Origin: Bacteroidetes bacterium GWF2_38_335
GTDB lineage: Bacteria; Bacteroidota; Bacteroidia; Bacteroidales; GWF2-38-335
Direction of reading: 5' to 3'
DNA: 64,000 nucleotides
NCBI GenBank assembly: GCA_001769535.1
Contig: MEOH01000016.1
Coordinates: 124,001 to 188,000, forward strand
The position numbers and the translations under genes were made by a program. A model generated the notes under the pieces. The model saw only the letters and a list, made by a program, of their open reading frames with translations, was not told the DNA's origin and did no database searches. Positions 49,222-64,000 of this stretch are shown in pieces (positions within the stretch are counted from its first letter, which is position 1; every line of letters starts with the position of its first letter).

Positions 49222-49678
49222 AAAACAAAGCAAGCCATTAATTTTTAATTTTCACCATATTTTGTACTGATTATTGGGAAATTAGTTGCTGAAAGTGGGG
49301 GGTTTTTATTAACAGGAAGTCGGAAGACAGAAGTCGGAAGTCGGAAGACCGAAGTTTGATTTGGTAAACAATTAAGTTCTTTTATAAATTTTAGCATTTT
49401 TAGGTTTGAAAAGGCCTGAAAGGCCGCTTAAATTCAGCCCGGGGCAACGCCCCGGGTATTGAAAAAAGCACAGCGACCCGCCGGCCAAATACACATTAAA
49501 ATACAAATCTCATTCCTGCGGAAAATTGTGAATATTTTGGTTGGGAGGAGGTAAACAACCCGCATCCGGTAAAACAATGGTGGCTATGGAAGTGCAAAGA
49601 AATTTGTATTTTACTTTATTTCTCTGTATTTTTATATTCATATAAAATTTCTTATAAGAATACTTTATTAACCAACCC
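49222..49678. other. Gene-free stretch with tandem repeats and a GC-rich hairpin
   Basis: About 455 bases. It contains degenerate GAAGTCGGAAG units (about 49317-49356), GGCCTGAAAGGCC near 49416, and a perfect CCCGGGGCAACGCCCCGGG hairpin at 49438-49456. The rest is AT-rich with no promoter I can call confidently for the gene at 49679. The minus-strand open frame 49510-49893 is antisense to yjbQ and is not supported. Confidence 0.7.
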
Positions 49679-58438: not shown

Positions 58439-58505
58439 TGTGTGAATTATGTAAATTTTTTCCATAATAGTATAATGTTTTTTCTCTCATAATTACTGTA
58501 CTTTA
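58439..58505 (+). promoter_or_regulatory. Shared promoter module, copy 1 (upstream of the radical SAM gene)
   Basis: TGTGTGAATTATGTAA starts at 58439. Its ATTATGTAA (offset 7) is followed 21 bp later by ATAGTATAA (58467), then GTACTTTA at offset 59 (58498-58505). The same parts at the same offsets occur at 60823 and 61622. The gene begins 127 bases downstream of the box. Confidence 0.6.
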
Positions 58506-58632
58506 TAGATTGATCATTTAGGTATACAGTTGAAAGGTTACAATTCTGTATATCTATTTTGTAAATCTGCTTATTTTCTTTTCTAACTTCTTTCAGGTCA
58601 AAAGAGTAATTCAAGCATAAAACTTATAATTA

Positions 58633-60135
58633 ATGAAGATATTATTTGTACATCCTCTTTATCCGGATTCTTTCTGGAGTTTCAAACATGCACTTCGTTT
58701 TGTGTCAAAAAAAGCTGCAGTACCGCCGCTTGGACTGATTACCGTTTCGGCCATGCTGCCATCCGATTGGGAGAAAAAGCTGGTTGATATGAACGTCACG
58801 CAACTGAAAACTAAAGATATTCAATGGGCCGATTATGTATTTTTAGGGGCCATGCATATCCAGAAGGAGTCGGTTGATTATGTAATCGGTGAATGTTTGA
58901 AGCTTGGTAAAAAAATGGTAGCCGGCGGACCGCTTTTCACACAGGAACCGCAAAATTACGAAATGATAGATCATCTGGTACTGAATGAAGCAGAAATCAC
59001 CCTGCCCCTATTTCTTGCTGATCTTGAAAAAGGTGTACCTCAAAAAATTTATCAGTCAAAAGAGTTTTCTGACGTAAAAACAACACCTATTCCCGATTAT
59101 CAGCTTTTATCGGCAAAGCATTATGCATTCATGAACATTCAGGTTTCCAGAGGATGTCCCTTTTCATGCGATTTTTGTGAAATAACCACATTATTTGGAC
59201 ATAAAGTCAGGATGAAATCAACCGAACAGATTCTAAGTGAACTTGACAAACTGTTTAATCTAAAATGGCGCGGCAATATTTTCATTGTTGATGATAATTT
59301 TATCGGAAATAAAAATGCCATAAAAACCGATTTACTTCCAGCCATGAAAAAATGGATGCAGGCACATAATTTTCCATTCACATTCAACACCGAAGCATCG
59401 GTAAACCTTTCGGATGATGATGAACTGATTCAGCTTATGGTAGAAACCGGATTTAAAGCCGTTTTTATCGGCATTGAAACGCCCGAGGAAAAGTCGTTGC
59501 ATGAATGCAATAAGGTTCAGAATAAAAGTCGTGATTTGCTTCAGTGTATTAAAAAAATTCAGCAGGCCGGACTTCAGGTTTCCGGGGGATTTATTGTTGG
59601 TTTCGATAATGATTCGCCAACAGTGTTCCAAACACAGATTGACTTTATCCAGAAAAGCGGTATTGTTTCGGCAATGGTTGGAATACTTAACGTACCAAAA
59701 AACACTCGTCTTTATGACCGTTTAAAATCTGAAGACAGACTTTTAAGTGAAACAACAGGGAACAATACCGACCTGACACTTAATTACGTACCTAAAATGA
59801 ATTCACTTGAATTGATAGCCGGGTATAAAAAGATTATCCGAGATATTTATTTCACAAAACCTTACTACAAAAGGATCAGAAGCTTACTCATCAATTACAA
59901 ACCCTATAAAACTTCACCGGTAAAAATAAACTTCGTTTTATTTAAAGCATTTTTTAAATCAATTTTCATAATTGGCTTTGTGAATAAAGGCAGAAGCGGA
60001 TACTGGAAGTTGCTTTTCTGGACTCTGTTCCGTCGTCCGGCACTTATGGCTGATGCAATAGAGTATTCAATTTATGGGTACCACTTCAGAAAAGTATATG
60101 ATTTGAGAAATAAAAAAAGTGCTTACAGGCAATAA
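58633..60135 (+). CDS. B12-binding radical SAM protein (DUF4070-type)
   Basis: A 500-residue enzyme. Residues about 1-150 form a cobalamin-binding-like Rossmann domain (FLGAMHIQKESVDY, MVAGGPLFTQEP). The radical SAM core has the 4Fe-4S motif Cys175-x3-Cys179-x2-Cys182 (RGCPFSCDFCE), the GIETPEE loop and GGFIVGFDNDS. The C-terminal ~130 residues match the DUF4070 region found in methyltransferase-like members of this class. These enzymes often methylate or rearrange lipids, hopanoids or secondary metabolites. The substrate here is unknown. Upstream lies a promoter module shared with the stress-type genes to the right, suggesting joint control. Confidence 0.9.
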   Translation: MKILFVHPLYPDSFWSFKHALRFVSKKAAVPPLGLITVSAMLPSDWEKKLVDMNVTQLKTKDIQWADYVFLGAMHIQKESVDYVIGECLKLGKKMVAGGPLFTQEPQNYEMIDHLVLNEAEITLPLFLADLEKGVPQKIYQSKEFSDVKTTPIPDYQLLSAKHYAFMNIQVSRGCPFSCDFCEITTLFGHKVRMKSTEQILSELDKLFNLKWRGNIFIVDDNFIGNKNAIKTDLLPAMKKWMQAHNFPFTFNTEASVNLSDDDELIQLMVETGFKAVFIGIETPEEKSLHECNKVQNKSRDLLQCIKKIQQAGLQVSGGFIVGFDNDSPTVFQTQIDFIQKSGIVSAMVGILNVPKNTRLYDRLKSEDRLLSETTGNNTDLTLNYVPKMNSLELIAGYKKIIRDIYFTKPYYKRIRSLLINYKPYKTSPVKINFVLFKAFFKSIFIIGFVNKGRSGYWKLLFWTLFRRPALMADAIEYSIYGYHFRKVYDLRNKKSAYRQ

Positions 60136-60160
60136 CCCAGGCCTTAAGATCGGGGTTATT
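60131..60160 (+). terminator. Hairpin after the radical SAM gene
   Basis: AATAACCC pairs with GGGGTTATT, overlapping the stop codon. The core AGGCCTTAAGATCGGGGTTA nearly repeats the hairpin at 44404. Confidence 0.6.
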
Positions 60161-60268
60161 TGCATAATCGCAATTTAAGTTGTAATTTTATAGAAATAAA
60201 ACAGTTAAACTGGTTTAAATTGAAAACCGGTCAAATTAGTCCGTCCATCTTAACTGTAAATCCTGTAA

Positions 60269-60829
60269 ATGAAGCTGTATATCAAATACATGGTTTCCAT
60301 CCGTTGTAAAATGATGGTGAAATCGGAGCTTGAAAAGCTCGGATTGGTTTATTCTGTTGTCAATCTTGGAGAAGTAGAAATATTTGGTCAGATCACCGGA
60401 GAGCAGCGTGAACAATTGAAATTGGAGCTTCATAAATCAGGATTGGAGTTGATGGATGACAAAAAAGCCATTATCATTGAAAAGATAAAAATTGTTGTGG
60501 TTGAGATGGTGCATTACACCGAAGAACGTCAAAAGTACAAATATTCAGATTATATCAGTGAAAAACTAAATTACGATTATACCTATCTGGCAAATCTTTT
60601 TTCTGAAGTTACCGGCACAACCATTGAGCATTTTATAATTGCCCATAAAATTGAACGTGTAAAAGAATTGCTGATTTACAACGAACTCAATCTTACCGAA
60701 ATTTCCTATTTGCTTAACTACAGCAGTGTGGCCCATCTATCAAACCAATTTAAAAAGGTCACCGGTCTGACCCCCACTTTTTTCAAAAATCTAAAAAACA
60801 AGAAGCGCAATTCACTTGATAATGTGTGA
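60269..60829 (+). CDS. AraC-family regulator, paralogue 1
   Basis: A 186-residue protein with a C-terminal AraC-type double helix-turn-helix (residues about 95-180: YTYLANLFSEVTGTTIEHFIIAHKIERVKELLIYNELNLTEIS, then YSSVAHLSNQFKKVTGLTPTFFK). The N-terminal ~80 residues form a small alpha/beta domain (IKYMVSIRCKMMVKSELEKLGL, VNLGEVEI). It may bind a small ligand and is not the usual cupin of AraC. It is about 65-70 % identical by eye to the protein at 63180. The next gene's promoter module begins inside its last codons. Likely regulator of the neighbouring envelope-stress genes, by inference. Confidence 0.88.
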   Translation: MKLYIKYMVSIRCKMMVKSELEKLGLVYSVVNLGEVEIFGQITGEQREQLKLELHKSGLELMDDKKAIIIEKIKIVVVEMVHYTEERQKYKYSDYISEKLNYDYTYLANLFSEVTGTTIEHFIIAHKIERVKELLIYNELNLTEISYLLNYSSVAHLSNQFKKVTGLTPTFFKNLKNKKRNSLDNV

Positions 60830-60889
60830 ATTATATAAGTTGTTTTTAAAATTGTGTAAAGCTTTGCTGTAATAATAAATCGAACTTTG
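60823..60889 (+). promoter_or_regulatory. Shared promoter module, copy 2 (upstream of the BON gene)
   Basis: TGTGTGAATTATATAA starts at 60823 (overlapping the AraC stop). ATTATATAA at offset 7 and ATTGTGTAA at offset 28 are 21 bp apart, and GAACTTTG lies at offset 59 (60882-60889). The BON gene ATG is 29 bases beyond the box. Confidence 0.65.
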
Positions 60890-60917
60890 CATAAGATAAA
60901 AACAAATAATAAAAGTG

Positions 60918-61565
60918 ATGAGAACAAATGAAGAATTGCAAAAAGATGTTCAGGAAGCAATCAAATGGGAACCGCTGTTGAACGCTGCAGAGATAGGTGT
61001 TTCTTCGAAAGATGGAGTTATAACATTAACCGGAGTTGTTGACAGTTTCGCAAAAAAACTGGAAGCTGAAGATGCTGCAAAAAATGTTGTTGGAGTAAGA
61101 GCCATTGTTGAAAAAATTGAAGTAATACCATTACATGGAACAAAAACAGATAATGATCTGGCCAATGATGTGCTTCAAAAAATAAAAATGACCTGGGAAA
61201 TTCCAAATAATGAAATTAAAATCAAGGTTGAAAAAGGAGTTGTAACTTTAGAAGGCGAATTAAAATGGAATTATCAGAAAGAAGCCGCTAAAAAAGCAAT
61301 TATAAACATCCCCGGAGTAAAAGATGTATTAAATTTTATTGTAATTACCGGTGAATCTTTTGAAACAATTGAAAAAAGGAATATCGAGCAGGCTTTGGAA
61401 AGAAACTGGTCTATAAATGAACGAAAAATCTATGTAACCGTTTCAGGACATAAAGTTACCCTTAGCGGATCTGTTGGATCGCTATATCAAAAAGAACAAG
61501 CTGAAAGAATCGCATGGAATGCACCCGGCATCTTGCTTTTAGACAATGAATTGACAATAACATAA
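60918..61565 (+). CDS. Triple-BON-domain protein
   Basis: From the ATG at 60918 (a GTG at 60915 is an alternative) this is 215 residues, without a signal peptide. It has three BON domains of about 65-70 residues, each with V..KDGVVTLxGxVxxxxKxxAxxxAxxxxGVxxVxxxI patterns (GVITLTGVVDSFAKKLEAED, GVVTLEGELKWNYQKEAA, KVTLSGSVGSLYQKEQAE). BON domains of OsmY/Kbp-type proteins bind membranes or ligands and are linked to osmotic and general stress. It ends in a strong terminator, and its promoter belongs to the shared module. The cytosolic or unexported form resembles Bacteroidota stress proteins. Confidence 0.9.
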   Translation: MRTNEELQKDVQEAIKWEPLLNAAEIGVSSKDGVITLTGVVDSFAKKLEAEDAAKNVVGVRAIVEKIEVIPLHGTKTDNDLANDVLQKIKMTWEIPNNEIKIKVEKGVVTLEGELKWNYQKEAAKKAIINIPGVKDVLNFIVITGESFETIEKRNIEQALERNWSINERKIYVTVSGHKVTLSGSVGSLYQKEQAERIAWNAPGILLLDNELTIT

Positions 61566-61590
61566 TCCTACTTCTATTTTTTTAAAAAAA

Positions 61591-61619
61591 CAGATGGAAA
61601 TCTATCTGATTTTTTTTTT
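61591..61619 (+). terminator. Rho-independent terminator after the BON gene
   Basis: CAGATGGA pairs with TCTATCTG (one G-U) around AA, followed by ten T. Confidence 0.88.
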
Positions 61620-61621
61620 AA

Positions 61622-61688
61622 TGTGTGAATGTTGTAATTCTTAATAGCAATTATGTAATCATTTATCATTCAAATAATCTCAACTTTA
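61622..61688 (+). promoter_or_regulatory. Shared promoter module, copy 3 (upstream of the barrel gene)
   Basis: TGTGTGAATGTTGTAA starts at 61622. ATGTTGTAA at offset 7 and ATTATGTAA at offset 28 are 21 bp apart, and CAACTTTA lies at offset 59 (61681-61688). The barrel gene ATG is 36 bases beyond the box. Confidence 0.65.
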
Positions 61689-61723: not shown

Positions 61724-62302
61724 ATGAAAAAAACAATTGGAATAATAACGATACTGCTACTAATGTTAAGTTTAAACATTAGTGCCCAGGAAACACAAAC
61801 GACTAATTCGGGCTATGGTAAAACACTAAATCTCGGTCTAGGTTTTGGAGGATATTCGGGCTACTATGGTTATATCGGCCATTCACTGCCTGTTTTGCAT
61901 CTTGATTATGAACTGGACGCAGCAAAAAACTTTACTCTGGCTCCATTTATCAACTTTTACTCATTTAAAAAGTCATATTATTGGGGAAATGCTCATTACC
62001 CGTATAAATATTATTATTACCATGAAACTGTGATTCCAATTGGAATAAAAGGCTCATACTATTTCGATCAGTTGCTTAAAGCCAATTCAAAATGGGATTT
62101 TTATCTTGCCGGTTCGCTGGGATTTGCAATCATAATTTCGTCATGGGACAGTGATTATTATGGAGATGAAGACTACTATCATAATGCCAATCCCTTGTTT
62201 CTTGATTTGCATGTTGGTGCAGAATACCATATAAATGAAGGACTCGGAATATTTCTTGATTTATCATCAGGGGTTTCAACAATAGGATTATCAATACATT
62301 AA
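61724..62302 (+). CDS. Small outer-membrane beta-barrel protein
   Basis: From the ATG at 61724 this is 192 residues with a signal peptide (LLLMLSLNISAQ); the longer frame from 61625 runs through the promoter and is rejected. The mature part has alternating strands rich in Tyr and Gly (LNLGLGFGGYSGYYGYIGHS, FYLAGSLGFAIIISSWDS, EYHINEGLGIFLDLSSG). It is an OmpX/Ail-like eight-stranded barrel by pattern. It is in the same module-controlled cluster as the BON gene. Function within the stress cluster unknown. Confidence 0.75.
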   Translation: MKKTIGIITILLLMLSLNISAQETQTTNSGYGKTLNLGLGFGGYSGYYGYIGHSLPVLHLDYELDAAKNFTLAPFINFYSFKKSYYWGNAHYPYKYYYYHETVIPIGIKGSYYFDQLLKANSKWDFYLAGSLGFAIIISSWDSDYYGDEDYYHNANPLFLDLHVGAEYHINEGLGIFLDLSSGVSTIGLSIH

Positions 62303-62320: not shown

Positions 62321-62659
62321 ATGGAAAATACCGAACTGGAAAAATCAAAAGCACATATCACTGTAGAAATCATTGAATATGTACCAAACTCCGTTGTATG
62401 CAAAACAATAATAAAAAAGTCAACCGGTACCATCAGTGCCATGTCCTTTGATACCGGTGAAGGATTAATCGAAAAAACTTCGCCATTTGATATTTACGCT
62501 CAGATTATTGAGGGACAAGCAGAAATAGTAATCGACGACAAGTCAATATTACTTGAAACAGGTCAGTCAATTATTATACCTGCACATAAACCAAATCTTA
62601 TAAAAGCAAACGGACGGTTTAAAATGATACAGACTGTCATCAAAAGTGGTTATGAATAA
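62321..62659 (+). CDS. Small cupin-fold protein
   Basis: A 112-residue cytosolic protein with a single cupin barrel: PFDIYAQIIEGQAEIVIDDKSILLETGQSIIIPAHKPN covers cupin motifs 1-2 (G..E and PAxxPH-like). One of the usual metal His residues is missing (only the late His of PAHKPN is present), so metal binding is uncertain. It follows the barrel gene by 18 bases and is probably in its operon. Such small cupins occur next to BON and AraC genes in Bacteroidota. Confidence 0.8.
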   Translation: MENTELEKSKAHITVEIIEYVPNSVVCKTIIKKSTGTISAMSFDTGEGLIEKTSPFDIYAQIIEGQAEIVIDDKSILLETGQSIIIPAHKPNLIKANGRFKMIQTVIKSGYE

Positions 62660-63179: not shown

Positions 63180-63779
63180 TTGAAACTCTTTATCAAATAT
63201 ATGGTAAGTATCCGCTGCAAAATGCTGGTAAAAGCCGAGTTGAAAAAACTTGGTCTTCACTACATTTTAGTAGAACTTGGAGAAATAGAGATCATGGAAG
63301 ACATCACTGAAAAGCAAAGAATGGAGCTCAAGGCAGCTTTGCAAAAATCGGGGCTTGAATTGATGGAAGATAAAAAAGCCATGCTTATCAGCAAAATAAA
63401 AAGTGCCATAATAGAAATGGTTCATTATACCGAGGAGGCCATAAAAGTTAATTTTTCAGATTACCTGAGCGAAAAACTTAAATATGACTATACATATATG
63501 GCAAATCTGTTTTCAGAAGTACAGGGAACCACCATTGAGCAGTTTATCATCTTTCATAAAATTGAACGAGTAAAAGAACTAATTATTTACAATGAATTGA
63601 ATATCACAGAAATTGCATGGAAGATGAATTACAGCAGTGTGGCACATCTGTCAAATCAGTTCAAAAAAGTTACCGGGCTCTCTCCTTCTCATTTTAAGAC
63701 ATTAAAAGATAAGAGAAGAAGTCCGATCGAAGACATTGGAAACAATAATTCACCTTTATCCGTCATTGAGGAAACTTAA
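63180..63779 (+). CDS. AraC-family regulator, paralogue 2 (TTG start)
   Basis: A 199-residue paralogue of the protein at 60269, matching from residue 1 (MKLFIKYMVSIRCKM against MKLYIKYMVSIRCKM) through the AraC helix-turn-helix (YTYMANLFSEVQGTTIEQFI, YSSVAHLSNQFKKVTGLSPSHFK). Because homology reaches the first codon, the TTG at 63180 is the likely start; the first ATG (63201) would cut off conserved residues. It is followed after two bases by a PAS-domain gene, so regulator and sensor are probably co-translated. Confidence 0.85.
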   Translation: MKLFIKYMVSIRCKMLVKAELKKLGLHYILVELGEIEIMEDITEKQRMELKAALQKSGLELMEDKKAMLISKIKSAIIEMVHYTEEAIKVNFSDYLSEKLKYDYTYMANLFSEVQGTTIEQFIIFHKIERVKELIIYNELNITEIAWKMNYSSVAHLSNQFKKVTGLSPSHFKTLKDKRRSPIEDIGNNNSPLSVIEET

Positions 63780-63781
63780 AA

Positions 63782-64000
63782 ATGAAAGAGAAAAAACTAT
63801 TTGAATCTCTGTATGTCAGAAGTTTGATAGAAGCCAGCCGTGATCCATTGATAGCCATAAACATCAATGGAAAAATTACTGACATGAACAAGGCAATGAC
63901 AATAATCACGGGTGTTTCACGCAAAAAACTTACAGGCACAAACTTTTTCAAATACTTTACTGACCAAAAAAAAGCAAAAAAAGTTTATGTGCAAGTTTTC
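63782..64000 (+). CDS. PAS-domain sensor protein, N-terminal part (runs past the window)
   Basis: The frame opens at ATG 63782 and stays open to base 64000 (73 codons). The start, LYVRSLIEASRDPLIAININ, followed by GKITDMNKAMTIITGVSRKK and LTGTNFFKYF, is a PAS domain. Such proteins in Bacteroidota usually continue into more PAS domains and a histidine kinase or similar output, which cannot be seen here. It starts two bases after the AraC stop, so a sensor-regulator pair is likely. Confidence 0.85.
   Translation, partial: MKEKKLFESLYVRSLIEASRDPLIAININGKITDMNKAMTIITGVSRKKLTGTNFFKYFTDQKKAKKVYVQVF

Follow-up and report, generated by a model that had tools for sequence, protein, structure and literature searches.

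The window analysed here is a 64,000-nucleotide stretch (C16:124001-188000) of the 5.27-Mb assembly of Bacteroidetes bacterium GWF2_38_335, and in its last part three copies of a 67-bp module lie among genes that include two for small paralogous AraC-family regulators, araC1 and araC2. Each module joins a direct repeat of 21-bp period to a promoter-like -7 box, and we argue that such modules are very probably the operators and promoters of a regulon activated by a small AraC-family protein. The features of this region, which runs on into locus L035 of the same contig, are as follows, the E-values of modules being those of the profile R2 introduced below.

58439-58505, + strand: module 1, 21-bp direct repeat and -7 box, before the radical SAM gene (R2 E 2.8e-8)
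58633-60135, + strand: B12-binding-like radical SAM protein with DUF4070 (Pfam), predicted target of module 1
60269-60829, + strand: araC1, small AraC-family regulator with an HMA-like N-terminal domain (stop TGA at 60827-60829)
60823-60889, + strand: module 2, before the BON gene, overlapping the end and TGA stop of araC1 (R2 E 5.9e-11)
60918-61565, + strand: triple-BON protein, predicted target of module 2 (BON 3e-43, three stretches)
61622-61688, + strand: module 3, before the barrel-like gene (R2 E 3.0e-9)
61724-62302, + strand: barrel-like exported protein, no Pfam match, predicted target of module 3
62321-62659, + strand: small cupin, 18 bp after the barrel gene (sub-threshold Cupin_2)
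63180-63779, + strand: araC2, paralogue of araC1 (70% identical), in the same direction as the genes behind module 3
63782-64000, + strand: first part of a PAS hybrid histidine kinase gene that follows araC2 immediately and extends past the window (L035:7782-9782)
L035:9779-10213: receiver-only protein after the araC2-linked hybrid kinase

On the forward strand at 58439, 60823 and 61622 all three modules open with TGTGTGAAT at offset 0 and carry nnACTTTR at offset 59. Between these lie, in that order of modules, the words ATTATGTAA, ATTATATAA and ATGTTGTAA at offset 7 and ATAGTATAA, ATTGTGTAA and ATTATGTAA at offset 28, the weakest of the set being the second word of module 1. An earlier note on this DNA had reported the same parts at the same offsets, and they are present as it described; absent from it was the overlap of module 2 with the last codons and TGA of araC1 (60269-60829).

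The look-alike promoters are real and far beyond chance. The genome scan that the earlier note had proposed, with a matrix of the three modules, was run on both strands of 136 kb (271,310 positions in all, from L035-L038 and the window's first 56 kb), and it returned nine sites beyond the three founders at 16.7-36.5 bits, above the best scores of ten Markov-shuffled copies (7.9-15.9). All nine were also recovered as module sites by other searches; two further module sites scored just 15.1 and 8.8, a range shared with unexplained positions at 14.8, 12.4 and 11.7. The evidence is carried by the spacing, since the short word TGTGTGAATKWTRTAA alone, searched for in this genome as a 16-base pattern with at most two mismatches, showed no enrichment (55 matches versus 56 for its reversal; at zero or one mismatch, 8 matches, 6 of which are module sites), and the spaced architecture gave 15 matches versus none reversed.

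Two profiles extended the search. R1, a sequence-only profile from an alignment of ten C16 sites, found sites outside its building set at C16:209737 (E 7.3e-11), 208581 (2.2e-8), 217108 (2.7e-5) and 217993 (4.6e-4), and likewise at C26:54882 (6.1e-7), C7:109023 (1.3e-5) and C2:192903 (0.008). R2, made from the best 150 of 190 R1 matches in loci of other genomes, returned 18 sites genome-wide at E <= 0.0012: 13 between C16:182439 and 217993, all on one strand, another at C16:280774, and one each on C26, C7, C2 and C28. The excess of matches before genes that the earlier note expected is present, 17 of these 18 sites standing in front of genes; the remaining one, C28:3614 (R2 E 6.5e-5), does not and was counted as a miss.

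In a phylum sample of 296 genomes, the fixed-spacing pattern (both repeats and the -7 box, at most three mismatches) matched 187 times over the two strands in 47 genomes, its reversal never, which bears out the earlier view that the fixed offsets are hard to explain by chance. That the likeness is an accident of AT-rich DNA, or a spread repeat of no regulatory meaning, might be argued from the 16-base word being no commoner than its reversal and from a partial duplicate at C16:192182. The flanks and spacers are however unalike from module to module while the spacing holds, and together with the absence of control matches in 296 genomes this makes such an account barely credible.

Module layout was counted around the 80 best of 469 AraC homologues, all of them close (66-77% identity) and including loci from Runella, Emticicia and Lacihabitans. 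First-block matches numbered 150, against 11 in Markov controls and 3 with the reversed matrix; the second block exceeded threshold in 128 of the 150, at exactly the expected base in 125. Two-repeat matches numbered 160 versus 0 in either control, and 137 of these had a -7 box above threshold, 114 at the expected base and 20 one base shorter. Spacing is thus kept beyond this genome, where its loss in close relatives would have spoken against the earlier note, and the single same-genus genome contains two module sites. The consensus of 150 sites, fitted to R1, reads aTGTGTGAATnATGTAAC-N12-TTrTGTAACaCTT-N17-CAmCTTTGY, in which block 1 consists of two boxes about one helical turn apart (TGTGTGA and ATGTAA) and block 2 mainly of the second box; across modules the spacers and flanks are unalike though the spacing is constant. 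In five measured leaders the distance from the -7 box to the ATG is 34, 38, 39, 128 and 239 nt, the last two before the radical SAM and SPFH genes; a 61-aa open reading frame (ORF) intervenes in the SPFH leader.

This geometry is reminiscent of a classical arrangement. At araBAD of Escherichia coli, araI1-araI2 form two direct half-sites of 21-bp period next to the promoter, the distal one more complete, and the module resembles them in each of these respects, as its presumed regulator shares the AraC-type DNA-binding domain; it would be bound in like manner. The systems differ in that the N-terminal domain is HMA-like here and a sugar-binding cupin in E. coli AraC, and in that here there are many stress and surface targets and the stop codon of the regulator lies within the next gene's operator. 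Another well-known operator, the CRP/FNR site TGTGA-N6-TCACA, was tried as a description of the module and set aside: the 150-site operator consensus has no inverted second half.

The -7 box (CACCTTTG or CAACTTTG) can be compared with the sigma-A promoter consensus of Flavobacterium psychrophilum, TAnnTTTG in the accessible text of PMC9723704. It keeps the A and the TTTG of TAnnTTTG and departs from it at the first base, which is C in 87 of 139 sites and T in 25; measured against the promoters described in that text, the operator here occupies the -33 place. An alternative-sigma promoter without a TTTG box also agrees poorly with the module, the TTTG part being kept. An AraC protein that binds the module and mainly represses or anti-represses would suit a second block adjoining the promoter, where bound protein could block polymerase. 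A -7 box off consensus at its first base and a site ending upstream of that box are instead what is expected of activator-dependent promoters, and we consider the repressor alternative distinctly improbable beside activation.

A subset of leaders (L132-L211, L035-L036) carries the inverted repeat GTGAA-N6-TTCAC, or variants of it, about four bases after the -7 box. In a set of 146 leaders (164 sites less 15 without an anchor and 3 duplicate or too short), 27 have a G/C-closed stem of at least 5 within 32 nt after the -7 box, versus 4.4 in mononucleotide shuffles (maximum 10 of 200), and 18 of the 27 begin at the identical base. Most arms are the same GTGAA, so that operator and RNA hairpin are not separated by these data; where the paired arms differ from it, as they do in a few cases (GTAAC, GTGGAA, GTGAGA, CAGGTA), a hairpin is somewhat favoured. 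An Rfam search of the window, L035 and L036 returned no family at any module.

Two lines of evidence tie the modules to the AraC genes beside them, as the earlier note had suspected: an overlap of module and stop codon in 44 of 80 homologues, and the co-occurrence of the two in genomes. araC1 ends AAT GTG TGA (Asn-Val-stop), and those bases open module 2. When the DNA after the stop alone was scored with a matrix of this genome's ten sites (range -40 to +120), 44 of the 80 AraC homologues scored best in exactly the araC1 register, with the TGA stop inside the module's TGTGTGA (43 by a stricter rank test), and none of these 44 falls outside the 48 whose stop is TGA. The module is shifted 9 bp upstream in a further five (L135, L153, L165, L173, L175), where repeat 1 contains a TAA stop, and it lies 18-20 bp downstream in L189, L192 and L210. 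What follows a stop-overlap araC is variously a gene for a cupin, PAP2, CsbD, an outer-membrane barrel, a further araC or something else; the site is thus tied to araC rather than to any single orthologue behind it. A sensor kinase following the AraC gene, as with araC2, was seen for 17 of 82 proteins (labelled by hand), among those without stop overlap. On a quick tree of the 82 AraC proteins, in which 37 of 78 inner branches are weakly supported and the near-copies L145/L146 and L165/L173 are included, the stop-overlap label appears across deep branches and requires 16 changes versus a shuffled mean of 27.1, a distribution that fits, and does not prove, an old origin with losses.

The regulator may also act on its own gene. 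G001, G003, G013 and G027 each have a module whose end is 25-30 bases from the matched start of an araC behind it, and of 162 modules 10 have araC as their downstream ORF. In this genome no module lies directly upstream of araC1 or araC2 at E <= 0.003; araC2 follows the barrel and cupin genes of module 3 on the same strand and could be co-transcribed with them.

Across the phylum sample, the N-terminal domain of this AraC type was found in 141 genomes, among them 43 of the 47 positive for the pattern (exceptions G075, G118, G222 and G320). R1 at E <= 0.01 marked 58 genomes as positive, 55 with the AraC domain (exceptions G089, G140 and G222), and R2 at E <= 0.001 marked 59. By R2, 58 genomes have both module and domain, one the module only (G222), 83 AraC only and 154 neither; the domain is thus present in 58/59 module-positive genomes versus 83/237 others (Fisher p 3.4e-21, uncorrected for kinship). 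For the 70 genomes of the same class the corresponding counts are 44, 0, 19 and 7 (p 5e-4), and in this genome plus 30 relatives modules occur in 11, AraC in 13 and both in 8 (p 0.02), with AraC and no module in the relatives G011, G017, G022, G029 and G030.

Several observations weigh against an AraC-activated regulon. Modules occur without such an AraC in the relatives G005, G014 and G023 and in G222 of the phylum sample, and single pattern matches occur in G075, G118 and G320, where the N-terminal domain is absent; a full-length relative of the regulator was sought in those three and in G268, yielding just matches centred on the helix-turn-helix part. The reverse also holds, 83 of the 141 genomes with the AraC domain being without detected modules. 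Related genomes in the co-occurrence counts are not independent, nor fully are the two profiles, as R2 was built from sites found by R1 and R1 from this genome. Two paralogues are present here, either of which may be the one that acts; binding of the modules by AraC and its effect on expression are deduced from sequence, and the preference for activation over repression comes from position alone. Concerning the exceptions, no full-protein AraC relative was found in G222, G089 or G140, and the two G222 modules examined sit near contig ends. By resemblance, the genes behind the modules examined in G005 and G023 are ice-binding-like and Usp-like, so the type of target is kept there though the regulator was not seen.

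These exceptions could mean that another transcription factor, for instance of CRP/FNR type or the output of a phosphorelay, reads the module, the AraC genes being simply among its targets. The modules without this AraC in G222, G005, G014 and G023 would follow naturally, block 1 contains TGTGA, and hybrid kinases and receiver proteins are encoded in the same region, though Pfam found no DNA-binding domain in the receiver protein after the araC2-linked kinase. The conserved element is nevertheless a direct repeat lacking the inverted TCACA half of a CRP site, and both co-occurrence and stop-codon overlap point to AraC; we therefore regard another factor as unlikely, while giving it more weight than repression by AraC.

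The putative activator is a two-domain protein. Its C-terminal double helix-turn-helix is of AraC/XylS type (PF12833, E 2.6e-16 and 2.3e-15, above cut-off), and Foldseek matched this part of araC1 to AraT, MarA, AraC and SoxS. Pfam recognised the AraC domain alone, with no match for the N-terminal domain. An AlphaFold2 model was built from 40 sequences (mean predicted local distance difference test 88); Foldseek placed the N-terminal domain near the copper chaperones Atx1 and GolB (target TM-score 0.65-0.67, probability 0.98-0.99, with a weak E of 0.14-0.19), and in the model this domain has the order beta-alpha-beta-beta-alpha-beta, with a long helix in place of a clear last strand. At the position of the CxxC motif of HMA domains the protein reads S10-x-R12-C13 (aligned by eye), the first cysteine being serine; Cys13 is present in 82/82 AraC proteins, and Ser10 and Arg12 in 40/40. 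We make no claim of HMA membership, as the Cys-x-x-Cys metal site is not found. A third, distant AraC paralogue on C12 (L228:591-1202) has a CRSC motif and a sub-threshold HMA match (E 0.002), and close behind its stop codon R2 finds a weak likeness to the module (E 0.026); the araC1 branch probably descends from such HMA-AraC proteins through loss of one metal ligand. Three AraC-family genes, which may or may not belong to this subfamily, are raised in F. psychrophilum biofilm according to the accessible text of PMC5787105.

In this genome modules stand before the radical SAM (DUF4070 3e-34, Radical_SAM 9e-17, B12-binding below cut-off), BON and barrel genes of the window, and before genes for SPFH/Band 7, CsbD, MlaE and a DUF5670 protein. 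Others precede a Dps-like ferritin followed by Usp, and an Oxidored_FMN flavoprotein, behind which come DnaJ and a MerR_2 protein that we take to be CbpM-like. Ice-binding-like proteins (PF11999) lie behind the modules at C16 200205, 210544 and 214977 and on C26, and by resemblance behind that on C2; a small exported protein (C7) and two small ORFs of no assigned family complete the set. About 400 bp upstream of the dps module, L035:12182 (C16:192182) is a partial copy of it, alike in the first 33 bases and decayed in the second repeat. In the same direction after the ice-binding-like gene of the C16:210544 module, L036:11413-14921 encodes a PAS hybrid kinase, then a 132-aa ORF that looks by eye like Hpt, then a receiver-like ORF. 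The region also holds two matches to the Rfam family Acido-Lenti-1 at L035:10494-10539 (-) and window 49412-49456 (-), scoring 38.5 and 37.3 against a gathering score of 37.

For a wider view we applied a permissive rule (ATG ORF of at least 45 aa within 300 bp) to 164 sites, 150 from other genomes and 14 from this one, and obtained a downstream ORF for 162, at a median of 38 nt after the module. Named from one representative per group, these comprise ice-binding-like (21), CsbD-like (18), small cupin (11, relatives of the window's cupin directly behind a module), AraC (10), a 104-aa protein without clear family (9), OmpA-type (7), barrel-like (4, relatives of the window's barrel protein) and B12 radical SAM (2), with PAP2, YtxH, YflT, YceI and Usp among other representatives. 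Several of these families are general stress genes elsewhere, which is the reason for reading the regulon as a stress regulon. The general stress regulons of RpoS and SigB have similar kinds of targets, and those shared are CsbD, Dps-like, Usp, BON/OsmY-like, YtxH and YflT; the difference is that here the regulator is of AraC type and the -7 box resembles a sigma-A variant.

As judged from sequence, then, the regulon is real, widespread in Bacteroidota and linked to AraC. The core idea of the earlier note was right and its scope too narrow: shared regulation through 21-bp direct repeats upstream of a weak -7 box stands, whereas the description of the regulon as 'small' finds no support, with 17 gene-upstream sites here and the pattern in 47/296 phylum genomes, and neither does the proposed link of cobalamin/SAM chemistry to envelope stress, the radical SAM gene being 1 of 17 gene-upstream sites and its kind 2 of 162 downstream ORFs. 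Each module would constitute the operator and core promoter of one regulon member, the operator being a direct repeat of 21-bp period (block 1 aTGTGTGAATnATGTAAC, block 2 TTrTGTAACaCTT) that ends at the would-be -33 element, upstream of a sigma-A-type -7 box off consensus at its first base. The AraC activator (the araC1 product, its paralogue araC2 or their orthologues in the phylum), bearing an HMA-like N-terminal domain with Ser-x-Arg-Cys instead of Cys-x-x-Cys, would bind the two half-sites on one helix face and recruit RNA polymerase. Its targets would be genes of stress and of the cell surface, joined in other genomes by araC, and the operator of the gene after araC1 would be built into the last codons and stop codon of araC1.

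Taken further, and with about an even chance of being right, the backbone of a general-stress-like response of Bacteroidota may be a regulator of AraC type and old origin, whose HMA-like sensor has one cysteine and which drives a portable operator-promoter module. The stop codon of the regulator gene would hold the founding copy of the module, which would pass on with that gene and recruit whatever lands downstream; the system would be wired in part to a phosphorelay through the linked hybrid kinase, and some transcripts would carry a hairpin near the 5' end. The motif and regulon are likely, though not proven, to be new, as a literature search that covered few subscription journals found no earlier description.

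To our knowledge it is an open question how Bacteroidota coordinate stress and surface genes without a sigma factor of RpoS or SigB type. The present analysis makes that question testable by naming a family of regulators, defining the site precisely and listing targets in many genomes. It is unusual for an operator to overlap the stop codon of its own regulator and to persist there as the gene behind it changes, and such an arrangement would explain how the regulon could grow.

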